Positions 15,618-38,213 of a stretch of DNA of 64,000 nt are shown piece after piece. Where the stretch lies: assembly GCA_902799685.1 (NCBI GenBank), contig CADCBO010000005.1, forward strand, positions 1 through 64,000, read 5' to 3'. How positions within the stretch are numbered: the stretch's first letter is position 1; every line of letters starts with the position of its first letter. The notes under the pieces were generated by a model. It worked only from the letters and a program-made list of their open reading frames with translations, was not told the DNA's origin and ran no database searches. Source of the DNA: an uncultured Bacteroidales bacterium (GTDB lineage: Bacteria > Bacteroidota > Bacteroidia > Bacteroidales > Bacteroidaceae). The position numbers and the translations under genes are program-made.

Positions 15618-16703
15618 ATGAGAAAAATTGTTTGTATCCCTTTGTCTGCTGTTTTGTTATGCGGATGTTCTAACTCAAACAAGTCTGGCATCTTTATTCC
15701 TGAGGTAAAAGAACTGGATTATGGTCACCAGGCCAGATCTAAAATCACGCCCATCCAACTGGATTATTGCCCTTTGGGAGCGGATGATGTGGTGGCCTTT
15801 GACAAATACCTACTATTCACTACAAATGATCCATCCGGTTATATAAGGATATATGATATTGACAAAGGCACAGAAGTGGCTTCCATAGTAAAGAAAGGCC
15901 GCGCTGCCAATGAATTAACTGAGCATCCGAGGACCGTCAGCGAACAAGTGTATCTGTCTGACGGCGACATAATATTCCCTGTCATTGACAATAGAACCAT
16001 AAAGGAAATCAATATCACCCAATCCATCCAAAAAGGAGCGGCTGTAATAAATGCCAGTACACCATGCCTATTCCTGCTTGATGGCAATACTACCCTTATT
16101 GATAATGATATCTCCAAGACTTTTATATACCAAAAACCAAAGATGCATGACGGAGAATGTGATCCTCCAGTATTTTACATTCAGCAGGCGGGAGGAGAAA
16201 AGAAGATCATCCCGGTTCACAAACAGGTCATGCCTGCCGGTGATGGAGTTAATGCAGAGGTTAATGTTGAATTATATGCACTATATATGGGAGGTATTAA
16301 AAAACACCCCACAAAAAACATCATTGTCCATTCCCTTCAGAATATGAACTATCTGATTTTCTTTGATCTGGATAAAGACAAATGCTTTGCCGTTCATCAG
16401 AAAGGAGCCAGAACATATGATGATAAGGCAGAATACGTTCCTGGGAACATGACTTTTGGTGATGCCGCTGTTTCTGAAGACTATATCTTCATCAATTATC
16501 GTGATAATATTACAGCTGGTGGGGAATCAGATAAAGAGTGTGAAGTTCTTGTCTTTGACTGGAGCGGAAACTATATAGGTGGCTTCACGTCCGATGCATC
16601 ACTCCACCGTTTAACCTATAGTGAAGCCAACAAGTCATTGTATTGCTGCAATATCAGTGATGAGATATTGTATCAGATACCAATCAAGGACTTTCTGAAA
16701 TGA
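15618..16703 (+). CDS. BF3164-type 6-bladed beta-propeller lipoprotein (copy 1)
   Basis: The 361-residue product has an SpII signal ending LLCGC, so it is a lipoprotein. Family marks are GRAANEL at the first blades, KHPTKNIIV, YLIFFDLDKDKCFAVHQKGA and EVLVFDWSGNYIGGF, the pattern of BF3164-family lipoproteins with a six-bladed propeller. The family has no proven ligand. It heads a pair with the next gene; both leaders contain tgagccacaaaac (15565-15577 and 16725-16737), a trace of duplication. Confidence 0.8.
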   Translation: MRKIVCIPLSAVLLCGCSNSNKSGIFIPEVKELDYGHQARSKITPIQLDYCPLGADDVVAFDKYLLFTTNDPSGYIRIYDIDKGTEVASIVKKGRAANELTEHPRTVSEQVYLSDGDIIFPVIDNRTIKEINITQSIQKGAAVINASTPCLFLLDGNTTLIDNDISKTFIYQKPKMHDGECDPPVFYIQQAGGEKKIIPVHKQVMPAGDGVNAEVNVELYALYMGGIKKHPTKNIIVHSLQNMNYLIFFDLDKDKCFAVHQKGARTYDDKAEYVPGNMTFGDAAVSEDYIFINYRDNITAGGESDKECEVLVFDWSGNYIGGFTSDASLHRLTYSEANKSLYCCNISDEILYQIPIKDFLK

Positions 16704-16745
16704 GCGTTTAAATGATTGATAGACTGAGCCACAAAACAACCTATT

Positions 16746-17915
16746 ATGAAAAAACTGCTGTCATTAAACCTTACTGTTTTGCTGCTTGTAGCAGTATCAT
16801 GCTCTGATAACAAGCCTGCACCTGGTAGCAACGAGATATTCGTTGACTTTAAGAGTGAAAGCCCAATGGTGGTAAACGGCCCGGAGGACATTTTCTATTA
16901 TTCAGACTATATAGATTCTGTTGTTTATGTCCCTCTGGAGACATCTGATGAATGCCTTGTAGGTGAAGTTACTGACATGCATTTTGTCAATGACCGTATA
17001 TTCGTAAAGTCTGGATTATACAGTATTTTCATATTCGGCAAAGATGGAAAATTTATTTCAAAAGTATCCCGGCGCGGCAGAGGTCACGGCGAATATACCA
17101 ATATGGCCGGTTGGGATGTCAATCCGTCAAATAATGAAATCAACATTTACTCTAATGCCGATGAAACAGTTTACGTTTATTCCATCCAAGGGAATTTCTT
17201 GAGAAGTGTCAGGCTAGGAGAAGGTATTCACCGCGATTTCTGCGTGTTGCCCAACGGCAATTACCTGTTCTATACGCCAGACTATATGAAGAATAATTAT
17301 CGTGGTGTATTGCAGACAGACCCGGAGGGCAAAATCATCAATCAGCCATTGGTATTATCGGGCTCTGCAAGAAAATGTATTCTATTTAACAAGAACTTTG
17401 TTCATCTCAGTAACGGGCAAGTGGGCTTGATTGGTCCGTTTGGCTTTGACAACATTTACCATATCAATACTGATACTTCAGAGATTGCCTACCATATCAC
17501 CACTAATGTAAAAATTGCGCAAAGCGTGCTTGAAGATGATACACCGGGAAGTTTCATGGAACAGGAATTGTATTGCCTGGAGGATTATCTTGAAACCGAC
17601 AATCTGGTTATATTTCACATGAGCAACATGAAGGAAAAAGGCGTGGATGTAAAATATGACAAACGGACAGGCAAAACATTTTGCAGGTCTTGGAAATGGG
17701 AAAACGACCAACCCCAGTTGTTAGGCACACACTTCCTGCCTAGCGACAAGATGCTATGGGAAGACGGCGGACGATGGGCAGATTATGGCGTGATTTTGTC
17801 AGAAATAAGCACCTCTTTCCTAATGCAAATGCCGGAAGAGATGCGGAATCAGATTGCTCCCGATTGCACAATGGACTCCAATCCGGTTGTCTGCCTGTAC
17901 TACTACAAGCGGTAA
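16746..17915 (+). CDS. 6-bladed beta-propeller lipoprotein (copy 2)
   Basis: A 389-residue lipoprotein (VAVSC-SDNK) of the DUF4934/5128-like branch of the propeller family. The DSVVYVPLETSDECLVGEV start, RRGRGHGEYTNMAGWDV in the first blade pair and the C-terminal SNPVVCLYYYKR tail are typical. Acidic residues after the Cys fit export to the cell surface, as known for Bacteroidetes lipoproteins. It follows copy 1 after 42 bases and is probably co-transcribed. Confidence 0.8.
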   Translation: MKKLLSLNLTVLLLVAVSCSDNKPAPGSNEIFVDFKSESPMVVNGPEDIFYYSDYIDSVVYVPLETSDECLVGEVTDMHFVNDRIFVKSGLYSIFIFGKDGKFISKVSRRGRGHGEYTNMAGWDVNPSNNEINIYSNADETVYVYSIQGNFLRSVRLGEGIHRDFCVLPNGNYLFYTPDYMKNNYRGVLQTDPEGKIINQPLVLSGSARKCILFNKNFVHLSNGQVGLIGPFGFDNIYHINTDTSEIAYHITTNVKIAQSVLEDDTPGSFMEQELYCLEDYLETDNLVIFHMSNMKEKGVDVKYDKRTGKTFCRSWKWENDQPQLLGTHFLPSDKMLWEDGGRWADYGVILSEISTSFLMQMPEEMRNQIAPDCTMDSNPVVCLYYYKR

Positions 17916-18046: not shown

Positions 18047-18532
18047 ATGAGAAAAAAGCATCATCTACTGGACCACAAATGGCAGAAAATAGGATTCATA
18101 ATCTTTGCGGTTTGCGTTCTTTTATGCCTGGTTTTCTGGCAAGCCATTATCAATGACCTACTCCCGTATGTATTCATTAAGGATGTACAGACTGACCCGG
18201 CAGGATCCGGATGGGCATCGGCACTGGTATTGTTGTTTACGCCAATATCATTCGCTCTCATGGCGCTGTCACAGGAAAAGCTGGAAGATGAGAGAATTGT
18301 TGAAATCCGTCATCAGGCACTGGTGACTATCGTTATCATATACATTGTCTGGTCATTATTAATGTTTCTGTCTTCTCCTTTTTTAGTCCGTTTTGTTTCA
18401 CCCACCACGTTTGGCAAAATCAACATGATTCTAAAAATTCCAACCGGAGTAACAGCCTTTATGGGATACTACCTGCTGATTTTCAAATTATCTTTGTGGA
18501 AACAAAACCGGGAGTTGAGCGATGAAGAATAA
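18047..18532 (+). CDS. Four-TM membrane protein paired with an XRE regulator
   Basis: The 161-residue product has hydrophobic segments near 14-32, 55-75, 92-112 and 130-150 and charged ends. It overlaps the following XRE gene by 11 bases, the arrangement of small membrane proteins that travel with one-domain XRE regulators. No motif points to transport or catalysis. TACTTTTG about 30 bases upstream, with TTG 20 bases before it, is a likely promoter. Confidence 0.7.
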   Translation: MRKKHHLLDHKWQKIGFIIFAVCVLLCLVFWQAIINDLLPYVFIKDVQTDPAGSGWASALVLLFTPISFALMALSQEKLEDERIVEIRHQALVTIVIIYIVWSLLMFLSSPFLVRFVSPTTFGKINMILKIPTGVTAFMGYYLLIFKLSLWKQNRELSDEE

Positions 18533-18722
18533 TCTCAGAGTGGAACGCGCCCGCGTGCGCATGACCCAGCAGGATCTGGCCGACAAGACCGGCGTGACCC
18601 GACAGACCATCGTAGCCATAGAGCAAGGCAAGTTCAACCCCTCCACCGTACTGGCCCTGAAGATGGCCCGCGTATTCGGTGTAACCATCGAAGCCCTTTT
18701 TGAACTTGAAGATACTGACTGA
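18522..18722 (+). CDS. XRE-family transcriptional regulator, 66 aa
   Basis: A single helix-turn-helix domain of the Cro/CI type: VERARVRMTQQDLADKTGVTRQTIVAIEQGKFNPSTVLALKMARVFGVTIEALFEL. Short regulators like this bind their own promoter as dimers. GC content and codon use are higher than in the membrane gene it overlaps. It is followed after 21 bases by another propeller lipoprotein, so that gene may be in the same transcript. Confidence 0.92.
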   Translation: MKNNLRVERARVRMTQQDLADKTGVTRQTIVAIEQGKFNPSTVLALKMARVFGVTIEALFELEDTD

Positions 18723-18743: not shown

Positions 18744-19937
18744 ATGAGACTCCTTAAGACTGTTATTTGCTGTTCAATGTCCTTAGTGATGTTTGCCTGC
18801 GTATCATGCGGCAGGAAAGATACGGGTGTGGTTCTTATTGACCCGGATAAGGCCGTAGAGGCGGTATTGGAAGACGTTGCCTCTGACATCAGGATTATTC
18901 CCCTGAAATCAGACAGACCTATTCCGGGCATCAACATGTTTTTCTTCTATGACGACTATTTCTTTGGTACCAATGTGAACCGCGATATGAGTAATGATTT
19001 GGTCTTCAAAAATCTAAGTGTATTTGATTCTGACGGTAATTGTCTGGGAATCATTGACAGGCTTGGACGCGGACACGACGAGTATCTGGCGCTGAGAAAC
19101 TTCTTATATTTTGAAGATGAGCACATGTTGACTCTATACAACTCTGATCGTATGAACAGTACAAAATACTCCTATAGACTGCCCAGTATGGAGTATTTGG
19201 GCAGTAAGCCTTCATTTTTCATGGTCGGATTGGATCAGTCAGTACACATGGGCGATGGCCGCACCCTTTTGCAAACATTCAGAGGGGATGATACAAAAAG
19301 AGACTTGACGATGGCAATTTTCCGGCCCGATACAATACTGATGGCTACCGATTACGGTGAATTTGTAGGCAACCGAATTTCGTCCACATTCTACCATCAT
19401 AAGTTTACAAATTACAAGAATCCGCTGTTAGGTTTCTTTGGCTACAACAATGAAATATACAGCATTGACAATGATGACAGCCTGAAACTTGAATTCAGCT
19501 TTACATTCGGAAACAAAGGATTGCCCAAGTCGTATACAGATGATCCTAACCATCCGGGTCCATATATAGTAAGCCCTATGCAATACATGGAAGACGGTTC
19601 TTACATTCTCTTTTATGTTCCCGTAAAAAACGGCAACCTGATCAGTTTCATCTATAGTCGGCCTCAATATGATAACATAGAAGGTTTCATGAATTACTAC
19701 GTAACCAACGGAAACAGGAGCGCCAACTATTCAGATCTGAAAATTCCGGGACTGAAATTTGAGCCCACTCTGGCTGGAGTAAACGGAACTTCATACGTCT
19801 TTCAAATGACAAGCACTCCGGAAATAGATGAGTCCGTGCCGATGTCCAGACTAGGCCAGCAGATTCTGGATGCGTTCAAGGCTCAGAATGATGACAACCC
19901 CATCCTACTGCAGTTCAGGTTCAAGGACCTGAATTAA
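18744..19937 (+). CDS. 6-bladed beta-propeller lipoprotein (copy 3)
   Basis: A 397-residue lipoprotein (FACVSC). It has IRIIPLKSDRPIPGINMFF, LGRGHDEYLALRNF (the GRxxxEY family motif), and the C-terminal NPILLQFRFKDLN tail. Sequence is further from copies 1 and 2 than those from other members, so it is an older branch. It sits directly behind the XRE gene, and an ABC transporter pair converges on it. Confidence 0.75.
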   Translation: MRLLKTVICCSMSLVMFACVSCGRKDTGVVLIDPDKAVEAVLEDVASDIRIIPLKSDRPIPGINMFFFYDDYFFGTNVNRDMSNDLVFKNLSVFDSDGNCLGIIDRLGRGHDEYLALRNFLYFEDEHMLTLYNSDRMNSTKYSYRLPSMEYLGSKPSFFMVGLDQSVHMGDGRTLLQTFRGDDTKRDLTMAIFRPDTILMATDYGEFVGNRISSTFYHHKFTNYKNPLLGFFGYNNEIYSIDNDDSLKLEFSFTFGNKGLPKSYTDDPNHPGPYIVSPMQYMEDGSYILFYVPVKNGNLISFIYSRPQYDNIEGFMNYYVTNGNRSANYSDLKIPGLKFEPTLAGVNGTSYVFQMTSTPEIDESVPMSRLGQQILDAFKAQNDDNPILLQFRFKDLN

Positions 19938-20631: not shown

Positions 20632-20632
20632 C

Positions 20633-21130: not shown

Positions 21131-21643
21131 ATGACCGTTAGATCAACCTTTAAACGTGTGTGTGGAGTAATTTTGCTTATGATTCTTGTTTGCATTCCGC
21201 AGTCAGCCGGTGCAAGAAATACTGCCACATTAAGTAGTGATACAGTTAGCTTACACAAAAGTCTAAGCAATCTTAATCTCAGCCAGATGCTTCAGTCGGC
21301 AGAGAATCTTATCAATCAAATCTCCGTTAAATTAGCGGCTGACATAGACCCCGCAGACCTGAATCTCAAACTTGATTTTGACTTTGATATTAAGAACAGT
21401 CAACCCTTCCTGCTTGTACAGGTAATCTACAACACTCTTTCTGGCGATGACGGCCTGATCAACCAGCTGAAAGACAAGGAGATAAAGAAATTTGATAAAA
21501 AGACTCTCAACAAACTGAAGAGGCAGTTCACCAAGAGGTCAAACAAGGAGATCAGAGAACTGTGCGAGGGAGACCGTCAAACCCAGAAAGAGCTCAAGAA
21601 GAAAATCAAGAAACTGCTTGACGGAATCCAAATCAAAGAATAA
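21131..21643 (+). CDS. Secreted helical protein, 170 aa, unknown
   Basis: An SpI signal (about residues 10-28, VCIPQSAGA) is followed by a polar helical protein with SLHKSLSNLNLSQML and a Lys-rich C-terminus. No family is recognised. A strong terminator-like palindrome starts six bases after its stop. Confidence 0.6.
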   Translation: MTVRSTFKRVCGVILLMILVCIPQSAGARNTATLSSDTVSLHKSLSNLNLSQMLQSAENLINQISVKLAADIDPADLNLKLDFDFDIKNSQPFLLVQVIYNTLSGDDGLINQLKDKEIKKFDKKTLNKLKRQFTKRSNKEIRELCEGDRQTQKELKKKIKKLLDGIQIKE

Positions 21644-21649
21644 AAACAG

Positions 21650-21719
21650 TACAATTGGGGTCAGACCCCTTTTGTACTATTTTCAAAAATGATACAAAAG
21701 GGGTCTGACCCCAATTGTA
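21650..21719. repeat. 27-bp perfect inverted repeat carrying GGGGTCWGACCCC
   Basis: Arm 21650-21676 is the exact complement of 21693-21719, with a 16-base loop. Each arm also contains a shorter palindrome (ggggtc-a-gacccc), so two small hairpins are an alternative to the large one. Such units are often dispersed repeats in bacterial genomes. Here it probably also ends transcription. Confidence 0.85.
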
Positions 21720-21727
21720 TCATTTTT

Positions 21728-21795
21728 AAATGAAAAAGTTCGCTGCTGTGGCGAACTTTTTTCATTTTTGCGTGTATGCATTCGTGAAGCGCTTC
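21728..21795 (+). promoter_or_regulatory. Hairpin, -7-like element and TGAAGCGCTTCA operator of the first sigma operon
   Basis: A 16-bp stem (21728-21743 with 21751-21767, one bulge) is followed by CATTTTTG (21763-21770), which overlaps its end and may be the -7 element. Fourteen bases later is the perfect 12-bp palindrome tgaagcgcttca (21785-21796). The second operon has the same palindrome core at the same distance. Confidence 0.5.
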
Positions 21796-21832: not shown

Positions 21833-23020
21833 ATGAAAAGAATACTGTTCCCAATGATAATGTTGGCTGTTTTCCTGACAGCCTATGCATCAGCAAAAAC
21901 CGATAAACCTGACTCCCAGGACAAGCCCCAGCAGATTGTCTCATTTGTAAAGACAGAGCATGATGCCGCATGGTACGCACGCCAGGCTGAACTTTGGAAG
22001 GCCCAGGTTACATTGACCCCTGATAATGACGACGCCTGGATAAACTGGTTCCATGCCACCCGTTACAAACTGATGTTTGAGAGTGAGGACGGTGATTATG
22101 ATGACACCCCCCTTATTGAGATTGCCGAAAAGGCACGCAAGGAACGCCCTGAAAGCTATGCCCGATATTGTCTGGATTACTACAGCACCATGTGGTTCAA
22201 TGGATACGACGACCTTGAGGACAATATGGAGAAAGCCATTAAGATGCGTCCCGACAACGCCTATATGTATAAGGATTACGTTGTTTATCTTCTCAATAAG
22301 GGAAATACGGAACTGATGACTGACATCCTGAAGAAATGGTACGAAACCGGCGAGTTCTCATACACCTTACTCTCCTACGCCTATAATCAGCTGGCCGGAA
22401 TGGAACATGACGGAATACTGTTTGTAAACGGTGATGTCCCTACTTTCTCAAGTCTCATGATTCAATATGGAAAAGGACTGAATACTGACAAGACGGTCAT
22501 ATGCATAAGCCTTCTCTATTCACCCGAGTACCTCAAGAATATCTGCAATCAGCTGGGTATAGCTCAGGTAAGCGGTCCTACAGACTGGAGCGAGGAGGGA
22601 ATGCAGAAATGGGAGGAGGAGTTCTTACTTAACGTAGCAAACAAGACCGGACGTCCCATCTATTTCTCAACATTACTGTCAAATCTGCCTTTCAAAGACA
22701 AATTGTATTCTGAGGGTCTTGTCTATAAATACAGCCCCAAGCGTTATGACAATCTCTCTGTAAAGCGCCGCAACTTTGAGGATATCTACCTGACAGACTA
22801 TCTCTATGAGACATTCACCCCAGAAACATACGAAGCATCGGCCTACAGACTAAATCTGAATTATATACCATGCTTCAAGTCTCTGCTTGATTTCTACAAG
22901 GAGAACGGTGACAGGCGTCAGATGCGCAAGCTGTACTCAATGATGAAACGCATTGTTGCCCGCACGGAGAATATCAGTGATGAGGAACGCAAACGTTATA
23001 ACGATGAAATTGACCGCTGA
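21833..23020 (+). CDS. Secreted TPR-like protein, first copy (395 aa)
   Basis: After a signal peptide (AYASA, cut near residue 21) the product is a helical-repeat protein: HDAAWYARQAELWKAQVTLTPDNDDAWINWFHATR resembles a TPR motif, and MEKAIKMRPDNAYMYKDYVVYLL is another. The C-terminal half (SEGLVYKYSPKRYDNLSVKRRNFEDIYLTDYLYETF) is well conserved in the second copy at 23964. It is likely in the periplasm. Its end overlaps the sigma gene by 17 bases, so the two are coupled. It may sense or act in the signal that controls the sigma factor, which is inference. Confidence 0.75.
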   Translation: MKRILFPMIMLAVFLTAYASAKTDKPDSQDKPQQIVSFVKTEHDAAWYARQAELWKAQVTLTPDNDDAWINWFHATRYKLMFESEDGDYDDTPLIEIAEKARKERPESYARYCLDYYSTMWFNGYDDLEDNMEKAIKMRPDNAYMYKDYVVYLLNKGNTELMTDILKKWYETGEFSYTLLSYAYNQLAGMEHDGILFVNGDVPTFSSLMIQYGKGLNTDKTVICISLLYSPEYLKNICNQLGIAQVSGPTDWSEEGMQKWEEEFLLNVANKTGRPIYFSTLLSNLPFKDKLYSEGLVYKYSPKRYDNLSVKRRNFEDIYLTDYLYETFTPETYEASAYRLNLNYIPCFKSLLDFYKENGDRRQMRKLYSMMKRIVARTENISDEERKRYNDEIDR

Positions 23021-23510
23021 TACGTTCCGCAAACTCTACCTTGAGCACGGCCCGCGTGCCCAAGGTTTCTTCCTGAGGATGACCGGTTATGACCGTGAAC
23101 TGGCCCGTGACCTGACGCAGGACCTGTTCATGCGCCTGTGGTCCGCCAGATACAGTTATGATCCCAAGCGGCCGTTCCGTACCTGGATGTTCGCCATAGC
23201 ATACAACATGCTTAAGAACGAGTATCGCCGGCAGATGACAGTCATGGAGTATGTAGAGAATGCCGATAAGGAGGAACCTGTTATAGAAACCGATAATCTG
23301 GAAAAGCAGCAGCGCGACCAGATTCTGAGTGATGCCATCGGCCGTCTTCCGGAACCGCAAAAGGTTGTTTTCCTGCTCCGTTATGAAGAAGAGATGCCTC
23401 TGTCAGAGATAGCCCGCGTATGCAGCATCCCTGAGGGAACTGTAAAATCACGTCTGTTCAGCGCGCTGACAGCCGTGCGTGAATATTGTAAAAACAATGA
23501 AAATCAATAA
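23004..23510 (+). CDS. ECF sigma factor, first copy (168 aa)
   Basis: Region 2 is DLTQDLFMRLWSARYSYDPKRPFRTWMFAIAYNMLKNEYRR (core binding and -10 contact), region 4 is LPEPQKVVFLLRY...LSEIARVCSIPEGTVKSRLFSALTAVREY. There is no region 3, as usual in ECF factors. ATG 23004 is preferred as it aligns with the start of the second copy; the longer frame from 22953 lies fully inside the upstream gene. A small membrane protein that overlaps its end is a probable anti-sigma partner. Confidence 0.93.
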   Translation: MKLTADTFRKLYLEHGPRAQGFFLRMTGYDRELARDLTQDLFMRLWSARYSYDPKRPFRTWMFAIAYNMLKNEYRRQMTVMEYVENADKEEPVIETDNLEKQQRDQILSDAIGRLPEPQKVVFLLRYEEEMPLSEIARVCSIPEGTVKSRLFSALTAVREYCKNNENQ

Positions 23511-23826
23511 TATGGACAAACTGACTGAACTTGAAAAAGAGAGCCTGGAACTTCTTTCCGCTATCAAATCCAAAGCTGATAAAGAGAATCTGGAGATGCC
23601 CCTACCCTTACTGGACATCACGGAAAACGAGCCAAAACTACTGCGTCGCCGCATACCGTCTTGGGTAGCTGCAGCGGCCATGATTGCAGGCATCGCGATA
23701 GGTATCGCACTGCCCCAAATAGGCAGTACAGGACGAGACGCCAAAACATCCTTCAACTACGCAGACACTTGCCGCAGCGTAGCCCAAAACGATGTCAACC
23801 TCTCCCTCCTCATAACCTCTCTGTAA
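23497..23826 (+). CDS. Small single-TM protein, possible anti-sigma factor, first copy (109 aa)
   Basis: The start MKINNMDKLTELEKESLELLSAIKSKA is cytosolic and helical, RRRIPSWVAAAAMIAGIAIGIALPQ is a membrane helix (about residues 52-72), and ~35 residues follow outside. An amphipathic N-terminus plus one helix directly behind an ECF gene is the general layout of an anti-sigma factor, but it lacks the ZAS zinc motif, so this is inference. It overlaps the sigma gene by 14 bases. Confidence 0.65.
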   Translation: MKINNMDKLTELEKESLELLSAIKSKADKENLEMPLPLLDITENEPKLLRRRIPSWVAAAAMIAGIAIGIALPQIGSTGRDAKTSFNYADTCRSVAQNDVNLSLLITSL

Positions 23827-23864
23827 AAACTTTAAAAAATCTAATACCTACAGGAAAAAAATCA

Positions 23865-29345: not shown

Positions 29346-30494
29346 ATGAAAAAATCCTTTTCCAGTTTGACTCTGTTGTGGCTTTTGGCTTTGACAATAT
29401 GTTGCAACACCTCTAATCCTGATGGCGTTTCAGAATTCAAGTACAACATTACAATGACAGAATTGACTGAACCATCCTGGTATGATCTGGTTGACTCAGT
29501 CTCATACATAACCCTCAAGTCACCTGACAACACCGCTATGGGCGAGATCAAACAGCTCATAGTGAATAATGAGAGAATCTATGTCTTGGCCGATGGATTC
29601 TACTGCTTTGATATGGAAGGCAACTGTCTGTTCAAGCAGACTACCAAGGGACGTGCCAGGAATGAATTCATGGATGCAAGTTCAATGTCCGTATCAGACG
29701 GTCTGCTGTTCATTTATGACAGGATGCAGTATAAAGGCTTGTTCTTTAATGCTCTGACAGGACAGTATATCAGTACTCTGAACAGCACGCTTCACGGACG
29801 TGCCGGTTACTGCATAGGTGATCATGTCATTATCCATAACCTGAATGATGTAGATGAGGCAAGGTTCATAGTTCTTTCAAAGGAGAATCCTGAAAATATT
29901 CTGGATAATTACTTCTCAGAAAAGGAGCACCTGTCATCAATACGCGGTACAGACTCATGGGTGGATGACGGTCTGATTTACTCTTCATACAGGAGAGACC
30001 TTGCCTGGAAGATGACAGGCACGGAGTGTATTCCATATATCAGTATTACCGTTCCTGAGGAGCAAAAGCTGCCTGATCAACTCATTGATGAGATGATTGA
30101 CAACGGAACGATTTCTCCCCAAGGAGATGTAAGGGGGATTTACACCTATGGACTATCTGAAATAAAGGAATGTGACGGCTTTATTACGGGTCAACTTAAT
30201 GACGGAAAGAGTTTTATATATTTCATATTCGATAAGGGTTCCGGTAAATCACGTTTCTTTAAATATCCTGCAAAAGAGGTGTGGCAGCAACTTCCCATTG
30301 GTGAGAATGTATGCGCCGGTTATAAGGATTGCTTTTGTGCTATAGTAAACCCTGAGAGTATAATATTTTTAAAGACCATCTTAGGCAACATCGGCAAAGA
30401 ACCTACTCAAGAAAAATTCCGTCAGGCATATAACGCAATCAGCGCCCTCACAGAAAACGACTACGCCATTGTTGCACGCATCTGGCTTAAATAA
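29346..30494 (+). CDS. 6-bladed beta-propeller lipoprotein (copy 6)
   Basis: A 382-residue lipoprotein (LALTICC) of the DUF4934-like branch. SYITLKSPDNTAMGEIKQL and TKGRARNEFMDASSMSVSDGLLFIYD are the key segments. Its signal peptide (KSFSSLTLLWLLAL) is very close to that of the deleted copy at 34839. TAAGTTTG at 29315-29322 is the likely -7 element. The 215 bases between the small gene and this start are AT-rich and hold only this promoter. Confidence 0.78.
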   Translation: MKKSFSSLTLLWLLALTICCNTSNPDGVSEFKYNITMTELTEPSWYDLVDSVSYITLKSPDNTAMGEIKQLIVNNERIYVLADGFYCFDMEGNCLFKQTTKGRARNEFMDASSMSVSDGLLFIYDRMQYKGLFFNALTGQYISTLNSTLHGRAGYCIGDHVIIHNLNDVDEARFIVLSKENPENILDNYFSEKEHLSSIRGTDSWVDDGLIYSSYRRDLAWKMTGTECIPYISITVPEEQKLPDQLIDEMIDNGTISPQGDVRGIYTYGLSEIKECDGFITGQLNDGKSFIYFIFDKGSGKSRFFKYPAKEVWQQLPIGENVCAGYKDCFCAIVNPESIIFLKTILGNIGKEPTQEKFRQAYNAISALTENDYAIVARIWLK

Positions 30495-30507
30495 CATAGT
30501 TTTGCAA

Positions 30508-31263
30508 CTATGAGATAAACTTATCAGTTACTGATTCCCTGTATTTGAGAGATACAGGCAAATCTTTACCTTTAATAGTTATAGTATCAGTTGTGGCTTT
30601 ATCCACTTTTTTGCTGTTAACAAGGAATGAACGATGTATCCTTACGAAATCAGCCCCCAGCAATGCTTCCCATCCTGAGATGTTGGTTTTGTTGCGGAAA
30701 ATACGCTCATCGGTGGCGTGAACATACACCTCTGTATCACAAGATTCTACATACATTATCTCGCTTGGTAGTAGTGTCACTTTTTTCCTGTCTGAACAGA
30801 ATGTTATGGGAGTCTCTATCTTGGGGTAGTGATTTGCCATCCAATGATCAAGATATGTATTTCCAAGAGTCAACAAAACAATTATGACCGACAGGAACAA
30901 AGGATTAACAAGAATATGTGGGACCACTAATTTTGAGTAATGCCTGTAGTCGAAGAAATAGTATGTATAGCTTTGGAATACATTTAACCCTTCTCTCATA
31001 TTGCTGATGAAAAGATACGTCATAAAAATGAGAAGATACTCAAAGACAACAATAGCTAACGTTATGAAAACCACGTTCATTATTCCTTGGGAGCGCCTTT
31101 TGAATGACACTTGCGGATAAAGGAGTTTTGCGGCTACCGCACCAGGCAGATACATGGAGCCCAGCATCAGGGATTCCAGGAAAGAAAACCCTGTGCTTTT
31201 GACCATCAACGCAACTACAAGTATTGACAGTATCCAATAAGCCGTATTCAATAACACCTTCAT
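30508..31263 (-). CDS. Membrane-bound LytTR-family regulator
   Basis: The 251-residue protein has four membrane helices (about 5-23, 33-50, 62-85, 115-135) and then a LytTR DNA-binding domain: FCSDRKKVTLLPSEIMYVESCDTEVYVHATDERIFRNKTNISGWEALLGADFVRIHRSFLVNSKKVDKAT. LytTR domains bind with a beta-strand fold to direct repeats. A membrane part in place of a receiver suggests it senses a membrane or outside signal by itself. It converges on copy 6 and is divergent from the TM pair at 31493; TACCTTTG on the minus strand at 31300-31307 is its likely -7 element. Confidence 0.88.
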   Translation of the reverse strand: MKVLLNTAYWILSILVVALMVKSTGFSFLESLMLGSMYLPGAVAAKLLYPQVSFKRRSQGIMNVVFITLAIVVFEYLLIFMTYLFISNMREGLNVFQSYTYYFFDYRHYSKLVVPHILVNPLFLSVIIVLLTLGNTYLDHWMANHYPKIETPITFCSDRKKVTLLPSEIMYVESCDTEVYVHATDERIFRNKTNISGWEALLGADFVRIHRSFLVNSKKVDKATTDTITIKGKDLPVSLKYRESVTDKFIS

Positions 31264-31492
31264 TAGACTGTTATTATTCCAATGCGATCATATCATACCC
31301 AAAGGTAATCATTTGGTAGTATCGTGTATTTAAAAAACATCTCAAAATGTGTGAACAAAGGGTTTTATGGATTGTATAGATGGTTTTATTTACACCCATG
31401 AAGGCTTTTATATGTTTTATAAGGGGATTGTGTTTGAGAATTGGAATACTTTTGCGACAAACCTCTGTCTAATCTAAAAGCAAAATCAAATT

Positions 31493-31825
31493 ATGGAAGA
31501 AACAACCACCATTATCCGTATGATGTCACAAATGGGACTTGGCGCATGTATTGTCCTTACCATGCTGTTTGTCCTCATTTTCCTGTCGGCTTGGAAAGCT
31601 CCGGCATGGGTCAAGGACCTTGGGTCAATAGCTGTCGCCATTGCCCTTATATTCTGTGCCCGAGGAGTGATAATATGGGTAGATGACATAAGGCATGCGG
31701 GTGATATAAGTTCCACTGTGGTAGGCGGTGGGCTTGCATACGTGTTATTACCAATATGTTATGCAACCGTTATATGTATTACATCACGCATAATTGCTCT
31801 GATTCTTTCACCGCGTAAACATTAA
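31493..31825 (+). CDS. Small membrane protein with WKAPAW motif (110 aa)
   Basis: Three or four membrane helices (about 15-33, 45-62, 75-103) with LSAWKAPAWVKDLGS after the first. The next gene has the same plan and the motif SIWKAPAWTRKIGN. Position of the motif recalls small ExbB/TolQ-like proteins, but this is only an impression. TACTTTTG at 31447-31454 is a likely -7 element. It starts an operon with the next two genes. Confidence 0.65.
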   Translation: MEETTTIIRMMSQMGLGACIVLTMLFVLIFLSAWKAPAWVKDLGSIAVAIALIFCARGVIIWVDDIRHAGDISSTVVGGGLAYVLLPICYATVICITSRIIALILSPRKH

Positions 31826-31849
31826 GGAACCGTATTAAATCCGTTTGTT

Positions 31850-32179
31850 ATGGAACAGTCTGTTTTTCATCAGTTTGTAACGCCCGATGGCGGAATAGTA
31901 ATGATCATTGTTTTTGTGCTTTTACTGGTTTTTGAGATCGTATCGATATGGAAAGCTCCAGCTTGGACTAGAAAGATAGGCAACATATCCCTGTTAACCG
32001 GATTCCTATTCTTAGGAATCTGTTCATATACCGCGATGGATGAGACCTATATTTCCGGAGAATTCCATTATTTCCAATATCTTGAAAGTGCAACCAAAGG
32101 AGCATTCTCAGTTCTTTCAGGAAGTATCATTTTCCTTGTTTCGCGAATTGTGAACATAATACGTACACCACGAATCTAA
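31850..32179 (+). CDS. Small membrane protein with WKAPAW motif, paralogue (109 aa)
   Basis: Same length and helix plan as its upstream neighbour, sharing IWKAPAW and the following Arg/Lys-Ile-Gly. It ends IIRTPRI. It follows after 24 bases and is 11 bases ahead of propeller copy 7, so all three are likely one transcript, facing away from the membrane LytTR gene that may control them. Confidence 0.65.
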   Translation: MEQSVFHQFVTPDGGIVMIIVFVLLLVFEIVSIWKAPAWTRKIGNISLLTGFLFLGICSYTAMDETYISGEFHYFQYLESATKGAFSVLSGSIIFLVSRIVNIIRTPRI

Positions 32180-32190
32180 AAACAACCAAT

Positions 32191-33408
32191 ATGAATAAAA
32201 CTCTCTACAAATTACTGTTTGCGGCTTTCTTCACAGCCCTTATACTTTGTGCCTGCAAGAACAATGTCCAGCCTGACAACTCCTTGCAGATAACAAAAGA
32301 TGACGTTATCCATCTGGATGGTGCGTTTAATGACAACTTCCTGGAGAACTGGGAATACATCCTGCTTGAAGATGACACCCCAGAAGCTATGCTCGGCTAT
32401 GTAGATGGGCTGTTTTATGATGACGGACTGTTTTTTGTCTTTAGCGACAAATACAGCAACCACGCATCAATAAAGGTATTTGACAGCACAGGACACTATC
32501 AGCACGATATCGGCCAGACAGGCAGGGCGCGCAACGAGTACATACATCCCATTGACTGGGCCATAAACACATGGTGTAATGAGATAATCGTTATGGATAA
32601 CACCTCTTTCAACAAACGATACAGCTACAAAGGTGAATTTCTTGGGGAAGCCAAAAGACAATCAGGCGGAATAAATGATGGTTATATTGGCGGAGATATT
32701 TTAAAATGTATGTCTGACGGAACAATGATGTATTATTGCGGTCTGTGCATACTTCCTTCATTTGATTACTACATGGCTTACCCGGACGGAAACCTTGGCT
32801 CACCATTCAAGATGACAGACTATCACGCATATTGTGAGATGGACCCGATTGAATATGTAAGGCTGGCAGGAGATATAGGAGGTGTCATGCTAACATCCGT
32901 TTTTGCAAACGTCAAATCTGACACGACCTGGCTCTTGAGGCTGTTGGACAACCACATATATAAGGTATCTGATGATACCGCACAATGTGTGGCAAACATG
33001 AAATTCCTACCAGAAATACCTTATAAGACTAAATGCAACTATGACCATGAAAATGACAACAAGTATAAAGGACAGTGTATTCCCAATTACTTTTATGACA
33101 TGAAAGATTACCTTTACATTTGGTACTATTCTGCTGGTGAGTATCTGTTTGATAAAGCCTCATCAAAGATGTACCATATGGAATACGATTCCCTTGATGT
33201 TTCAATCCCGGATATAGGCTTTCCTTATGTCTATGACAATAGTATAATTGGTTGTGTTGATACGTGGAGCATCCAGAAAGCGCTCAAACTGATTGACAGC
33301 AAGGACTACGACCACCGCTACAGCCCTGAAGTGGAAGCTTTCTACCGCAAGGCAAAAGATTGTGAGAATCCTCCCATCATCATCGCCCATTACAAGAACA
33401 AACAATAA
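32191..33408 (+). CDS. 6-bladed beta-propeller lipoprotein (copy 7)
   Basis: The longest copy, 405 residues, lipoprotein signal LILCAC-KNN. Segments DIGQTGRARNEYIHPIDWAINTW and NFLENWEYILLEDDTPEAMLGYVDGLFYDDGLFFVFSD put it in the branch of copy 8. It is rich in Asp and Tyr, unusual even for this family. It follows the WKAPAW pair in one operon. Confidence 0.78.
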   Translation: MNKTLYKLLFAAFFTALILCACKNNVQPDNSLQITKDDVIHLDGAFNDNFLENWEYILLEDDTPEAMLGYVDGLFYDDGLFFVFSDKYSNHASIKVFDSTGHYQHDIGQTGRARNEYIHPIDWAINTWCNEIIVMDNTSFNKRYSYKGEFLGEAKRQSGGINDGYIGGDILKCMSDGTMMYYCGLCILPSFDYYMAYPDGNLGSPFKMTDYHAYCEMDPIEYVRLAGDIGGVMLTSVFANVKSDTTWLLRLLDNHIYKVSDDTAQCVANMKFLPEIPYKTKCNYDHENDNKYKGQCIPNYFYDMKDYLYIWYYSAGEYLFDKASSKMYHMEYDSLDVSIPDIGFPYVYDNSIIGCVDTWSIQKALKLIDSKDYDHRYSPEVEAFYRKAKDCENPPIIIAHYKNKQ

Positions 33409-33455
33409 CAGCCAGCACAAACTTCTTTATGGATTAAACCGAGACAATTAAATCA

Positions 33456-33505
33456 ATAATCTTGGTTAAAGGTTTTTGGAGCATAAAGAAGTAATAGTAC
33501 CTTTG
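33456..33505 (+). promoter_or_regulatory. Promoter of propeller copy 8 with the shared upstream box
   Basis: TTTTG (33474-33478), 19 bases, TACCTTTG (33498-33505). The 14-base box ataatcttggttaa is at 33456-33469, immediately before the -33 element, exactly as in front of copy 1. Confidence 0.7.
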
Positions 33506-33537
33506 ATATGATTTACATACATGTATTAGGTGTATAA

Positions 33538-34671
33538 ATGAAAAGGAAACTATTTGCATTTGGAAGTGTTGTATTAAGTCTGGCCAGTATAATGCTAATT
33601 TCGTTTGCATCGTGCGGCAAGGGCAAGTGCATACAGGCCATTCCCGTTGAGGAGGTGAAAGACACATATTTCCTTGATGAGATTGCCGTCAGCCGCAGCT
33701 TTGTGTTGCTTGATGACAGCTCTCTGGACGCGATTGTAGGCGATATTACCCAGGTTATGGTTGATGACGGGCTGATTTTTGTCTCGCACATCCCTAATGC
33801 TAAAGGCAACGATATTGACCAGATAATATCGGTCTATGACAAGGAGGGACGGTTCCTGAACAAGATAGGACAAAGGGGACGTGCCCGGAACGAGTTCTTG
33901 CGCATACGGTCATGGTGTATAGATAAGGATAGCAAAGAGGTTCTGATGTATGACCTGGACGCTTACGCCATAAAGAAATACATGTATGACGGGACTTTCA
34001 TCAGCCAGACCTCAATTCCCAAGGAGATTGATTTGATGAAGCTTTTCCTTACTGACAAAAGGATGTACGTTCAGTCAATGGTTCCCAATGATACATCGGA
34101 TGACTTTATGGAGTTAAAGGAGGATGGTTCATACACGCCATTACTGCCTATGAGGCAGATGGCAACTGACGGAGGCTGGCGCGTGGGTATTGTCAGCCAT
34201 TTTAGAGACCAGGACCTGAAAGATTTCTACCACCTGCGGGCGTTTGACAATATGCTCTACAGGATCTCTGATGGCAAAGCTGACTCATGCGGATATTTTG
34301 AGTTCATTGACGTGCCCCCAGCCAACAAACTGGAGAACCTGACTTTTGATTATCTGATTACCCTGAAGCAGCCCAACGAATGCTATGAGACTCCATCCTA
34401 TTTTGTGGCAAGTGAATTTGAGGCTGCCGATTATGTGTATCAGAAGCCCACAGGCAAATGCACCTGTTACAGGTATGACATAGCCAAGCTGCCCTACCGC
34501 CGCAAGATAGTAGGCGTGGCTGGCGATGTTCTGATAGCCGGCGTTAGCGCATCAGATGCACAGATTGCCCTGAAGGAGCATCCGGAACTCATTCCGGAGC
34601 AGGACAAGGTCATGCTGGAAGCTGTTGCAGGCAGAGAGAATGATGCGTTGGTGTTCTATCACTTGAAATAG
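33538..34671 (+). CDS. 6-bladed beta-propeller lipoprotein (copy 8)
   Basis: A 377-residue lipoprotein (ISFASC). Key segments: SRSFVLLDDSSLDAIVGDITQVMVDDGLIFVSH, IGQRGRARNEFLRIRSWCIDKD and the tail ENDALVFYHLK. The tail is matched by a remnant on the other strand at 34794-34826, so a second copy of this kind once lay there in inverted order. A strong hairpin follows. Confidence 0.8.
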   Translation: MKRKLFAFGSVVLSLASIMLISFASCGKGKCIQAIPVEEVKDTYFLDEIAVSRSFVLLDDSSLDAIVGDITQVMVDDGLIFVSHIPNAKGNDIDQIISVYDKEGRFLNKIGQRGRARNEFLRIRSWCIDKDSKEVLMYDLDAYAIKKYMYDGTFISQTSIPKEIDLMKLFLTDKRMYVQSMVPNDTSDDFMELKEDGSYTPLLPMRQMATDGGWRVGIVSHFRDQDLKDFYHLRAFDNMLYRISDGKADSCGYFEFIDVPPANKLENLTFDYLITLKQPNECYETPSYFVASEFEAADYVYQKPTGKCTCYRYDIAKLPYRRKIVGVAGDVLIAGVSASDAQIALKEHPELIPEQDKVMLEAVAGRENDALVFYHLK

Positions 34672-34729
34672 GCAGAAGAGATATTTTCTCAAACTGCTTT
34701 CTACAAATGGAAACAGATCCTTGTTTGAA

Positions 34730-34786
34730 TATTGAAAAGTCAGCCAGAACCATTGAAATCCATTGATTCTGGCTGAATTTTCAATA
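34730..34786. terminator. Bidirectional hairpin between convergent propeller genes
   Basis: Bases 34730-34749 pair with 34767-34786 with one mismatch. It lies between the stop of copy 8 and the convergent pseudogene. Confidence 0.75.
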
Positions 34787-34793
34787 TACGATT

Positions 34794-35165
34794 CCAGTGA
34801 TAGAACACCAGTGCATCATTCTCCCTATATGCAATGACCTAATCCTTCACTCTCGAATAGAAAAGGACGGGATTGGAGTCATCGAACACATGGATTGCAT
34901 TCAGATCCTGAATGAAGATCAGGTTTTCATCCACGTGTATATCTTTCACTATGCTTACCAACCCATCAATTGAATCTGTACTCAACCGGATTGTTGTCAG
35001 TGAGTCAAACACAGAGAAATAGTCAAAATGCTCAGTACGCTCCTCATGTACCAACGGCACATTTATGGTGACTTCCGCATTTGATTCATGAGGTTGTTTA
35101 CCGCAAGCCAAAACGGCAAAAGCCAATAGCCACAACAATGTTAATTTGGAAAAGGTTCTTTTCAT
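34794..35165 (-). pseudogene. Internally deleted propeller lipoprotein (copy 9)
   Basis: The open frame 34839-35165 gives 108 residues: a lipoprotein signal like that of copy 6 (KLTLLWLLAFAVLAC), the normal first ~85 residues (DSLTTIRLSTDSIDGLVSIVKDIHVDENLIF) and then directly DDSNPVLFYSRVKD, which resembles the C-terminal tail of copies 2 and 3. The middle ~270 residues are missing with frame kept. Beyond the stop, bases 34794-34826 still read ENDALVFYH in another frame, the tail of copy 8. So remnants of two propeller genes are joined here. Confidence 0.65.
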
Positions 35166-35227: not shown

Positions 35228-35638
35228 TTATACAAGATTGAGCTCCGAAATCTCGGAAGCAAAAGCTTTCATAGTTCTTTCTATCCTGGATGCTGTGCGT
35301 TTGGAGGGATGCCTTACGCCTGTGACATAATGACTTAACTGACGTTGGTTTATGCCGGTTATACGCTCCAGTCCCGCCAATGAAAATGCGTATGAGTAGT
35401 AATTAAGGAAAGAAGCCACATCATACTGGAAAACGAACTTGACATTGGGGAATGGTTTGCCTTCTGATGCATAGACACGCTTCAAATCCTCTACTCCAGC
35501 CATGAAATCCTCCTCGGTTTCACGTGCGGTGTTTCCTTCACCTATGCAACCAAATTCACAGTTGTTGCTTGAGATGTAAGCGGAATAATCACCCTTAACA
35601 CCTCTTTCTATTGTTACTTTTACTGTTTTCAAGTTCAT
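35228..35638 (-). CDS. HicB-like protein with helix-turn-helix, no HicA seen
   Basis: The 136-residue product starts with a partial RNase-H-like HicB fold (VTIERGVKGDYSAYISSNNCEFGCIGEGNTARETEEDFMAGVEDL) and ends with an XRE-like helix-turn-helix (LAGLERITGINQRQLSHYVTGVRHPSKRTASRIERTM). HicB antitoxins neutralise HicA mRNA interferases and repress their own promoter. No HicA-sized gene lies on either side, so this is an orphan regulator. TATCTTTG on the minus strand at 35651-35658 is its probable -7 element. Confidence 0.8.
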   Translation of the reverse strand: MNLKTVKVTIERGVKGDYSAYISSNNCEFGCIGEGNTARETEEDFMAGVEDLKRVYASEGKPFPNVKFVFQYDVASFLNYYSYAFSLAGLERITGINQRQLSHYVTGVRHPSKRTASRIERTMKAFASEISELNLV

Positions 35639-35871: not shown

Positions 35872-36981
35872 ATGAGAAAAGCAGTCCAGTATCTGTGTGT
35901 GGCGATGGTTGCATCACTCATGTTCTCTTGCAGCAGTAAGCCTAACCTTATGCTCCCCACCCGCCAGGTTGATTACCGCAACAAGTCTGAGATAACTATC
36001 AAAGGAAGGCTTGTAATCAATGACGTACTAGGTGCAGAGCGCATGATGGTTTTTGACACTCTCCTGATGGTAACCTGTAATAATCCCGCAAGCCAACTGA
36101 TGGTTTACAGCACCAACACACTACAACCAATAGGCGGTTTCTGCACCCGAGGACGCGCCGGCAATGAGTTTCTACGGCTTTACAGCACAACTGAACAGAG
36201 ATATTACGATGAGAATCATCACGTGATTGTACCTCTGGTTGACTATATGGATGTCATTAAGGAGGTGGATGTTACTGAGTCGCTAAACGAACAACGTACC
36301 GTAATTAAGAAGACCACTGATATAATGCCGTTCGTGGATGCAATTACAGTTTTTATCGATAACGATACAGATAACCGCTTTCTGTACGAACATGCCGTAA
36401 CAACAATCAGGGAAGAAGGAAACAATAGGATACATGAACTTGACCAGACCAGAATCCCTGTTAGAATATCCACGCAAAAGGCCGGTGATGAAATGCAAGA
36501 GATACCGCTGTTCAGGAGAAAGGTTGATGTATCTGACGAGCATTATGTCGTCATGCCATACGCCGCGCTTATAAAAAAACATCCCCAAAGGAATCTCATA
36601 GTATATGAATGCCTTAATATGGATTATCTTCTTTTCATTGATCTGGATGATAATGAGAAGAGTTTTGCCATACACCAAAAAGGCTCGACAACCTTTGACG
36701 ACACTTACATTGATTCCGGCGAATACTTTATAGGCTGTGCCACAGCTACAGATTATCTGTTTGTTTTATACTACCACGGCGACTACACTCTTAAAAACAA
36801 GGACTCAGGCCAAATGCTACCGGAACTTTTGGCGTTTGACTGGACAGGAAACCTGATAAAGAGTTTCAAGATGGACAGAGAGATTTTCGGCCTGGCTTAT
36901 GACGAACTTCACAAAATCCTGTTCTGCTTAAACACTACAGAGGATCTGTATGCCTATGACTTGAACGGAATGATACCCTGA
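35872..36981 (+). CDS. BF3164-type 6-bladed beta-propeller lipoprotein (copy 10)
   Basis: A 369-residue lipoprotein (LMFSC-SSK). TRGRAGNEFLRLYSTTEQRYYDENHHVIVPLVDYMDVIKEVDVTESL is close to copy 4, as are KKHPQRNLIVYE, YLLFIDLDDNEKSFAIHQKGSTTFDD and the end TTEDLYAYDLNGMIP. Copy 4 and copy 10 are the closest pair in the array. It begins a two-gene unit with copy 11. Confidence 0.8.
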   Translation: MRKAVQYLCVAMVASLMFSCSSKPNLMLPTRQVDYRNKSEITIKGRLVINDVLGAERMMVFDTLLMVTCNNPASQLMVYSTNTLQPIGGFCTRGRAGNEFLRLYSTTEQRYYDENHHVIVPLVDYMDVIKEVDVTESLNEQRTVIKKTTDIMPFVDAITVFIDNDTDNRFLYEHAVTTIREEGNNRIHELDQTRIPVRISTQKAGDEMQEIPLFRRKVDVSDEHYVVMPYAALIKKHPQRNLIVYECLNMDYLLFIDLDDNEKSFAIHQKGSTTFDDTYIDSGEYFIGCATATDYLFVLYYHGDYTLKNKDSGQMLPELLAFDWTGNLIKSFKMDREIFGLAYDELHKILFCLNTTEDLYAYDLNGMIP

Positions 36982-37049
36982 TATTCTTTCACTTGTAATA
37001 ACAAATCAGCACCTTTCACGTTTCTTTACTACAACATTATAAATTATTT

Positions 37050-38213
37050 ATGAAAAGTCTTTTTCACTCAGTCATTCTTGCTGCATCAATACTATTAGCA
37101 TTATCCGTTGTCTCCTGCAAGGAAAAGAATAACAACGAATACTACACCCCGCGTGAGATTACGGCCGCTACTGATGTACCCAAGTACAATCTGAAGCTGA
37201 ACCGCATTGATTTGGAATGCTTTGGAGTACACGATATCATAGCCGTAGATTCCATGATTGTGGCTATAACCAGCAACACGCAGTCATTGATTCAGGTTTT
37301 TGACTATTCAGGCAAGCCCATAGCTATGCTGTCGCCCAGCGGACGTGCAGGAAACGAGTTCCTTCAGGTCTATTACACCAATCAGAACGTCATGATAGAC
37401 GGTGACAGGTATCTGTATGTGGGAGATCATGATAATCTTTATCTGTACAACCTTTCCGGTTCCATCAGGAACGGAGCAAACCTCAAGCCGCAAAAGCTGT
37501 TGAAGATCCCTGATTACAGAGACAGAGCCAACGGTTTCAACATACTGTTTCGCAGCGACGGATCTTATTTTCAATACACAGGAGCAACCTATGATGAAAT
37601 TATTCTTTCGGCCACTGATTACACCATCAATCCTGACGGCAGTATTTCCATAAACAATATGCCCGAATTTGAATACAATCCCCCAACATACACTCTTGTA
37701 AAACCGGACAGCAGCATCACGACATTTGACATATATCCTCAACTCCCTGATTTCAAGGAGGATATCTGGGCACAAAGACTTTATCATTCTAACGTAAGAT
37801 TGTCCCATGACGGCCAGAAGGTAGTTGTTGTGGATGCAAATCAGGACCGAATGACTTTCATCGACCTTGAAACCGGCGATATGTTCGGCGTAAGAGGTCC
37901 CGATTTTATAGATTTTGTTGATATCGTAGATACGGGAAGTCCCTCAAAGATAGTTGAAGGAGTTTGGCAGGTAGTAACCTACGGGGATCACATTTATGTG
38001 CTCTATGACCATAATACCATCTATGAAGAGGCTCATGAAAACAAGCCCGCAAATACCACCATCCGCGTATTCACTTGGGACGGAGAGTTTATAGCAGACC
38101 TCATCCCCGATGCCCCTATCGACAATTTCTACATCGATGACAAAACCGGCAAGCTCATAGCCACAGACGATGACGAGCAGTTCTATATAGCTGACTTGCA
38201 AACACAATGGTAA
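37050..38213 (+). CDS. BF3164-like propeller lipoprotein (copy 11)
   Basis: A 387-residue lipoprotein (LSVVSC-KEKNN, a charged patch after Cys). LSPSGRAGNEFLQVYYTNQN, VVVVDANQDRMTFIDLETGD and IRVFTWDGEFIADLIPD mark the family. It takes the same place after copy 10 as copy 5 after copy 4 and is the right-hand end of the array; rho follows in the same direction. Confidence 0.78.
   Translation: MKSLFHSVILAASILLALSVVSCKEKNNNEYYTPREITAATDVPKYNLKLNRIDLECFGVHDIIAVDSMIVAITSNTQSLIQVFDYSGKPIAMLSPSGRAGNEFLQVYYTNQNVMIDGDRYLYVGDHDNLYLYNLSGSIRNGANLKPQKLLKIPDYRDRANGFNILFRSDGSYFQYTGATYDEIILSATDYTINPDGSISINNMPEFEYNPPTYTLVKPDSSITTFDIYPQLPDFKEDIWAQRLYHSNVRLSHDGQKVVVVDANQDRMTFIDLETGDMFGVRGPDFIDFVDIVDTGSPSKIVEGVWQVVTYGDHIYVLYDHNTIYEEAHENKPANTTIRVFTWDGEFIADLIPDAPIDNFYIDDKTGKLIATDDDEQFYIADLQTQW

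Follow-up and report, generated by a model that had tools for sequence, protein, structure and literature searches.

Why should one short stretch of a Bacteroidales chromosome hold ten intact, related propeller lipoprotein genes with regulators scattered among them? We addressed this question in a window of 64,000 nt (contig CADCBO010000005.1) from an uncultured Bacteroidales bacterium (assembly GCA_902799685.1, 2.81 Mb, 86% complete; G000 below). Positions 15618–38213 of the window, a stretch of 22.6 kb that precedes rho, carry ten intact propeller open reading frames (ORFs) of 351–405 amino acids (aa) and a truncated one of 108 aa, here P1 to P11 with P9tr as the truncated copy (Table 1). 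The array is bounded by engB (11559–12176), a DUF3667 gene and, immediately upstream of it by Pfam, BlaI/M56 (13253–15336) on one side, and by rho (38398) on the other. An earlier note, made from the sequence alone, had taken the array for a variable surface system. We found that the locus does vary between species. As a description of the array, a bank of binding proteins lying inside the outer membrane fits better than a variable surface coat.

Two propeller families make up the array

We assigned the array members with the curated Pfam cut-offs for PF17170 (DUF5128, 6-bladed propeller; 22.9 bits) and PF15869 (TolB_like; 29.2 bits). P2, P3, P6, P7 and P8 passed PF17170 at 42–124 bits, and P9tr gave a weak match of 14.7 bits, under the cut-off. 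P4, P5, P10 and P11 passed PF15869 at 31.7–44.5 bits; P1 fell short at 24.7 bits, and its orthologue in genome G012 passed at 29.8. With P1 counted as TolB_like (T) and P9tr as DUF5128 (D), the order is T-DD-TT-DDDD-TT. Ten intact copies and one deleted copy are present as the earlier note had described, and so is a Cys-terminated lipoprotein-type signal at the start of all eleven (ten called by script, P5 by eye). The proposed GRxxxE(F/Y) motif held in its first part: GRxxxE occurs in all ten intact copies, and the following residue is F or Y in nine and L in P1. The strict alternation of two branches that had been suggested does not hold, and DUF4934 (PF16288) matched P2 alone among the members. 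NCBIfam gave no informative name for the array proteins. Approximately 14 further propeller genes lie elsewhere in the same genome. P2 had no near orthologue among the sequences compared (top match 27%).

To place the proteins structurally, we used models of one member of each family. The P8 model (predicted local distance difference test (pLDDT) 83.4, predicted template-modelling score (pTM) 0.84) has an NHL-repeat-like propeller fold. Its top match was 4raa, the putative exported protein BF0058 of Bacteroides fragilis, for which the entry title gives no function (template-modelling (TM) score 0.64/0.67, 15% identity), followed by animal NHL domains. The P8 and P4 models also matched weakly a Bacteroides propeller of another Pfam family, the DUF4221 protein BVU_1028 (PDB 3s9j). 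A sequence search of the PDB with the TolB_like profile returned nothing at 0.01.

The slot between engB and rho varies between species

We compared the interval between engB and rho across related species, using 16 regions of the genus upstream of rho and 26 loci of a sigma-factor cassette described below; several of these were identical contigs, leaving 17 distinct intervals. Intervals run from rho to engB, except that L040, L042 and L047 end at M56 and their counts are therefore minima. Left out were L011, L015, L016, L020, L046, L048 and L043 (contig ends), L026 (G001, engB not found), loci without rho, and duplicates. The 17 intervals hold 0–4 recognised propellers, compared with ten plus the deleted one in the window. 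Eight have none (L012, L017, L021, L047, L055, L023, L024 and L025), two have one (L019 and L051), four have two (L013, L022, L037 and L040), two have three (L018 and L042), and G002 has four (L014 with L036). L022 contains an additional ORF of 356 aa whose motif is similar and which the propeller profiles did not call. In L023, L024 and L025, from three species, engB and rho are direct neighbours approximately 190–215 bp apart, which defines an empty site. Queries with engB, M56 and the cassette gave no match in L027–L030, from other families of the order. G002 and G009 also carry propellers immediately downstream of rho, and 19 genomes of the genus, many of them incomplete, have 1–21 DUF5128 matches and 0–10 matches to the TolB_like profile each. 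Thus, the variability claimed in the earlier note is borne out between species by these counts, together with the deletion scars, the 98%-identical block and the recombined starts and mature domains described below; the counts exclude conserved one-to-one orthologues in all relatives. The slot varies between species, and members are gained, lost and exchanged.

L042 and L053 both come from the metagenome-assembled genome (MAG) UBA1192 (G014) and both have a rho-side region, with three propellers in one and none in the part seen of the other. This MAG may therefore mix two strains or species.

Pieces of the array have been exchanged and lost

The segment from LytTR to P9tr (30492–35132) is 98.0% identical over 4641 bp to G012, which is another species, whereas identity is 85.1% in the downstream flank (9160 bp) and 75.8% in the upstream flank (3621 bp). 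In 250-bp windows, identity is 98–100% until approximately 33.2 kb, 91–97% over part of P8, and 98–99% at P9tr. Synonymous divergence (dS) from G012 is 0.018 for LytTR (5 changes) and 0.039 for P7 (14 changes), against 0.156 for P8 and 0.282 for P1. The high identity of the block and the low dS of LytTR and P7 relative to the flanks and P1 point to a recent exchange of at least LytTR-m1-m2-P7. At the same place in G012, P6 is gone except for its start, and HicB-P10-P11 is gone except for the end of P11, which is joined to the start of P9tr. The truncated P9tr is itself shared with G012, and its C-terminal remnant is an inverted match to the end of P8. G006, a third species, carries at a different place a segment of 1100 bp that matches the window at 91% identity and covers memX-XRE and the end of P2. 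One gene there combines a start resembling that of P3 (84% identity in 73 bp) with a P8-like mature part (94% of DNA over 1060 bp); engB and M56 of G006 are 83% and 85% identical to those of the window.

Such unlike ends recur. The 5′ ends of P6 and P9tr agree at 83% of 71 bp, and those of two P8-like genes of G002 at 94% of 70 bp; in neither pair does the likeness extend into the mature part. Overall, four pairs (three independent) share 53–72 bp of 5′ DNA at 83–98% identity, with mature parts that are at most 33% identical or do not match. The cut-off used here (50 bp, 80%, mature identity at most 33%) was chosen after a looser run; at this cut-off, a control with three internal windows per gene across 89 genes gave no pairs. 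These results suggest that some exchanges broke at the signal peptide, placing a different mature domain behind a given start.

The array copies are ancient and selectively constrained

The earlier note had proposed P4-P5 and P10-P11 as a duplicated unit. We rejected a recent duplication: P4 and P10 are 38% identical, P5 and P11 have no BLAST match at 1e-3, and the copies fall in separate tree groups with orthologues of their own elsewhere. A tree built from 49 TolB_like rows places P1, P5 and P11 each beside genes from other genomes and separates P4 from P10 by 1.9 changes per column; P5 and P11 are joined in it solely by long branches that the program flagged. The phylogeny, for the TolB_like branch, thus gave no sign of recent tandem duplication.

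The ratio of nonsynonymous to synonymous divergence (dN/dS) was 0.13–0.34 in seven pairs of P1, P3, P7, P8 and P11, with dS of the P11 pairs near saturation. For comparison, ABC, dnaN and rho gave 0.05–0.08, and the neighbouring TPR-like (tetratricopeptide repeat-like), LytTR and TonB genes gave 0.17–0.22. These gene averages indicate purifying, perhaps relaxed, selection and give no sign of antigenic diversification at the level of the gene. Judged by these comparisons, the array members diverged long ago and are kept under purifying selection.

Leaders lack a surface export signal

Surface export of Bacteroidetes lipoproteins requires acidic residues just past the lipid-bearing Cys, according to two reports (PMC5080379, PMC6222051). 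We found this signal in none of the 11 array members (ten by lipobox script, P5 by eye); over residues +2 to +6, the ten script-called copies average a net basic charge of one unit. It was likewise absent from all 12 called rows of propellers elsewhere in the genome (two corrected by eye). The script left uncalled or miscalled P5, L037_12923, L040_6013, L064, L068, L042, L046, L051, L070, L072 and the fusion rows, and we read the first five of these by eye. The leaders do not bear out the surface system that the earlier note proposed. They lean, short of proof, towards the inner, periplasmic face of that membrane rather than the cell surface, a location that the note itself had set against its reading.

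Related arrays in other genera are often paired with small-peptide genes

Of 201 Bacteroidaceae genomes, 66 have DUF5128 propellers (best candidates, up to ten per genome). We read loci in six genomes picked for closely spaced matches; G230 has 24 recognised propellers in approximately 49 kb and G122 has nine in 20 kb. These clusters (for example L132–L139) resemble the array in having the same PF17170 and PF15869 families, lipoprotein leaders and tandem arrays of both. They differ from it in chromosomal place and in that several carry NVEALA (PF14055) peptides, with signal peptidase I, Wzy_C-type and NVEALA genes in or near them that the window array does not have.

PF14055 was matched in all six of these genomes. 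L134 and L136–L139 contain 19 NVEALA-like small ORFs, and L132, L133 and L135 contain none. For 16 of the 18 with a readable downstream gene, that gene is a recognised propeller, within 190 bp in 15 of the 16; behind the remaining two lie ORFs, 333 and 385 aa long, that the propeller profiles did not call. In the NVEALA-like ORFs of L136–L139 the leader is conserved and the Cys-bearing end varies, so that they resemble precursors of small secreted peptides. The window has no NVEALA motif at 13–38.5 kb. Among 12 genomes of the window's genus, the single PF14055 match is in G014, at 19 bits, below the cut-off, approximately 5.5 kb from a relative of P5 (L094). The nearest relatives of P5 are in G014 and G016, and the G014 copy lies beside signal peptidase I and a Wzy_C-type gene; a similar peptidase/Wzy_C/propeller cluster without a PF14055 match occurs in the window's own genome (L063). 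In a Bacteroides thetaiotaomicron table (PMC10434189), the 6-bladed propeller BT0664 has a value of −4.2 (second column 0.353) and the O-antigen ligase family gene BT0662 a value of −9.3 (second column 0.132), neither of them significant.

Regulatory modules accompany some members

Pfam confirmed XRE, two extracytoplasmic function (ECF) sigma factors and LytTR among the regulators that had been described within the array; the HicB call has behind it an HTH_3 (helix-turn-helix) match below the cut-off, without a HicB family match in the Pfam scan, and we presume the name from the appearance of the N terminus. The gap is 21 bp between XRE and P3 and 11 bp between m2 and P7, and anti-sigma b, TonB, P4 and P5 are separated by 12, 20 and 20 bp. 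These gaps of 11–21 bp suggest joint transcription of XRE-P3, anti-sigma b-TonB-P4-P5 and m1-m2-P7. The memX-XRE-P3 order is retained in G007, and relatives of memX lie close to four propeller loci elsewhere, two of which also have XRE. On contig C20 of the same genome (L071), a P7-like propeller (48%), LytTR (44%) and an m1-like gene (31%) recur in rearranged order. A cassette of three genes, encoding a TPR-like protein, an ECF sigma and a protein with one transmembrane (TM) segment, forms a tandem pair at 21833–26050 and is present in one or two copies in relatives. Its secreted TPR-like protein had no Pfam match and is so labelled from its appearance.

We measured the proximity of regulators to propeller clusters in six genomes, among the matches listed, with a random placement that ignored contig ends and with faint propellers missing. 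ECF genes lie within 4 kb of 7 of the 71 clusters (2.35 expected, P ~0.009); within 5 kb there are eight ECF cases, five of which belong to a single orthologous sigma locus. BlaI lies within 4 kb of 5 of the 71 (1.83 expected, P 0.036), but P is 0.17 when the distance is set to 3 kb and 0.07 when it is set to 5 kb. We rejected the regulator neighbourhood as a defining feature, as it is weak outside the window locus. The claim of local regulators thus stands for some members, on gene spacing and the retained XRE-P3 pair, and not for most clusters outside the window, which have no regulator nearby. In G010, G002, G006, G009 and G007 (L118–L122), an orthologous ECF sigma and a partner gene of 309–318 aa lie beside or near DUF5128 propellers.

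In G009 (L013:17369–19308), an ECF sigma is followed by an ORF that fuses an anti-sigma-like TM part to a propeller. The N-terminal half had no Pfam match, and among the best candidates (up to seven each) in 201 family genomes other than G009, no open-frame match spanned both halves. We rejected sensor fusion as a general rule and retain this ORF as a single case, which may be an effect of MAG assembly.

A proposed periplasmic binding array and its alternatives

Tentatively, and with somewhat less than even confidence, we favour a ligand-binding array of two families on the periplasmic side, read out via local modules or protective. The regulator-rich engB–rho slot would collect old, divergent members of two related families of 6-bladed, NHL-like propeller lipoproteins. 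Held at the periplasmic face of the outer membrane, each propeller could bind a small ligand of its own, for which a short peptide is plausible, via variable propeller faces. Binding might be read out through the XRE/memX, ECF/anti-sigma/TonB and LytTR/m1/m2 modules or, alternatively, might simply protect the cell. Species would gain, lose and exchange members, with some breaks at the signal peptide. That NVEALA genes are paired with propellers in other genera suggests peptide ligands, and we infer function from this pairing by analogy, as neither the window nor its genome has an NVEALA gene. A search for functional literature on these propellers (DUF5128, DUF4934, BF3164, NVEALA), judged by titles, found none.

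Several observations weigh against this reading. The start C-x-D-D occurs in 3 of 24 called rows of relatives (one by script, two by eye), all from a rho-side DUF5128 group that is absent from the window, and location may thus differ between members. The rule for the export signal was derived in other genera, and our SusD-type control was small: four of six loci were called, three acidic and one neutral (mean net acidic 1.25), and none of the called loci had the strict motif. In the looser run for unlike ends (40 bp, 78%, with mature identity under 45% or a score under 150 bits), internal windows gave 29 pairs compared with 12 at the 5′ end; we suspect that the internal matches reflect the conserved GRxxxE stretch. 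The P4 model has a pLDDT of 67.4 and matched propellers of many kinds and nothing finer. PF14055 is absent from G000 and from 11 of the 12 genus genomes (E 0.01), and the majority of propellers in the genus are not located near regulators of the kinds seen here.

Propellers serve as sensor domains in some kinases, and each array member could instead be a periplasmic sensor subunit for a neighbouring regulator (ECF/anti-sigma, M56/BlaI or LytTR). The gene spacing, the conserved XRE-P3 pair, the second LytTR/m1-like/P7-like cluster, the G009 fusion and the excess of ECF genes near propellers are consistent with this. However, the fusion stands alone, most of the ECF cases trace to one orthologous locus, the BlaI enrichment depends on the distance chosen, and most propellers have no such neighbour; we regard this explanation as unlikely, though one to take seriously. 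The array might instead supply interchangeable proteins of the outer surface, used to bind ligands from host or diet or to escape phages or immunity; the differences in gene content between species, the exchange of pieces and the three export-signal-like starts in relatives speak for this. Against this stand the leaders of all eleven members, the low dN/dS and the lack of a recombinase among 30 ORFs scanned with Pfam, and we consider a surface role quite improbable. A slot that merely tolerates insertions, with propellers doing unrelated separate jobs, would accord with the empty site in three species, the ancient divergence of the members, the low G+C (0.42–0.44, compared with 0.51 downstream and 0.48 upstream) and remnants of other genes at 28805–29178; ten members of two related families and the arrays of other genera are hard to obtain from neutral insertion alone, and the purifying selection also argues against it, which makes this explanation rather unlikely.

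Orphan immunity arrays are said to consist of divergent, exchanged genes without a cognate toxin nearby, and the propeller array may work in a similar way. The acquired interbacterial defence with orphan immunity genes reported in Bacteroidales (PMC10470768) involves other protein families. A further reading of the array, which we consider a long shot, is an orphan immunity or interceptor bank: each propeller would recognise a Cys-containing NVEALA-type (or similar) peptide from neighbouring Bacteroidaceae, the bank would be updated by mature domains taken behind resident starts, and its own peptides would be lacking. The propeller BtuG offers another parallel to the binding array that we favour. 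BtuG is reported to be a Bacteroides surface lipoprotein that captures vitamin B12 (PMC6143338, PMC10404256). The array members resemble it as propeller lipoproteins that, by analogy, may capture ligands; BtuG differs in being surface-exposed and complexed with a TonB-dependent transporter, of which Pfam found none among the array ORFs scanned. Because the slot ranges from empty to ten propellers, with exchanged pieces here and NVEALA pairing elsewhere, the idea of one peptide for one propeller is directly testable.

Features of the array and minor observations

Table 1. Genes in and between the propeller copies, by position in the window.
Feature	Position	Strand	Remarks
P1, TolB_like-type propeller lipoprotein	15618–16703	+	Orthologues 90% in L037, 89% in G012, there between engB and BlaI
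P2, DUF5128/DUF4934 propeller lipoprotein	16746–17915	+	PF17170 124 bits, PF16288 57.9 bits
memX (small membrane protein) and XRE regulator	18047–18722	+	XRE 18522–18722, HTH_3 53.1 bits; ends 21 bp before P3
P3, DUF5128 propeller lipoprotein	18744–19937	+	Pfam; 70% in G007, 54% in G015
Cassette copy a: secreted TPR-like protein, ECF sigma, one-TM protein (putative anti-sigma)	21833–23826	+	
Cassette copy b: same three genes	23964–26050	+	45, 69 and 63% identical to copy a
TonB C-terminal domain protein	26063–26764	+	PF03544 82.6 bits; 20 bp before P4
P4, TolB_like propeller lipoprotein	26785–27864	+	Pfam
P5, TolB_like propeller lipoprotein	27885–28940	+	Pfam; 50% relatives in G014 and G016 at different loci
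P6, DUF5128 propeller lipoprotein	29346–30494	+	Pfam; G012 keeps just a scar of its start
LytTR regulator	30508–31263	-	PF04397 50.1 bits
m1 and m2, related small membrane proteins	31493–32179	+	m2 stops 11 bp before P7
P7, DUF5128 propeller lipoprotein	32191–33408	+	Pfam; 99% in G012
P8, DUF5128 propeller lipoprotein	33538–34671	+	Pfam; structure model
P9tr, propeller gene with middle deleted	34792–35165	-	N-terminal 108-aa ORF 34839–35165; C-terminal remnant 34792–34834
HicB-like protein (presumed), C-terminal HTH	35228–35638	-	HTH_3 21.9 bits, under cut-off 23
P10, TolB_like propeller lipoprotein	35872–36981	+	Pfam
P11, TolB_like propeller lipoprotein	37050–38213	+	Pfam; orthologue group of 8 rows from 8 genomes

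The gene remnants at 28805–29178 lie on the minus strand, are mostly shared with G012 and gave no family match; from their appearance, we take one for the beginning of an acetyltransferase and the other for a small ORF resembling an antitoxin. An inverted repeat with 39-bp arms that are 97% complementary lies at 40414–40535, between rho and the DUF3127 gene. A palindromic intergenic element at 21641–21730 has similar copies by propeller loci on contigs C10, C18, C20 and C26 of the same genome; as the comparison covered propeller loci, it may be a dispersed repeat of the REP (repetitive extragenic palindromic) type.

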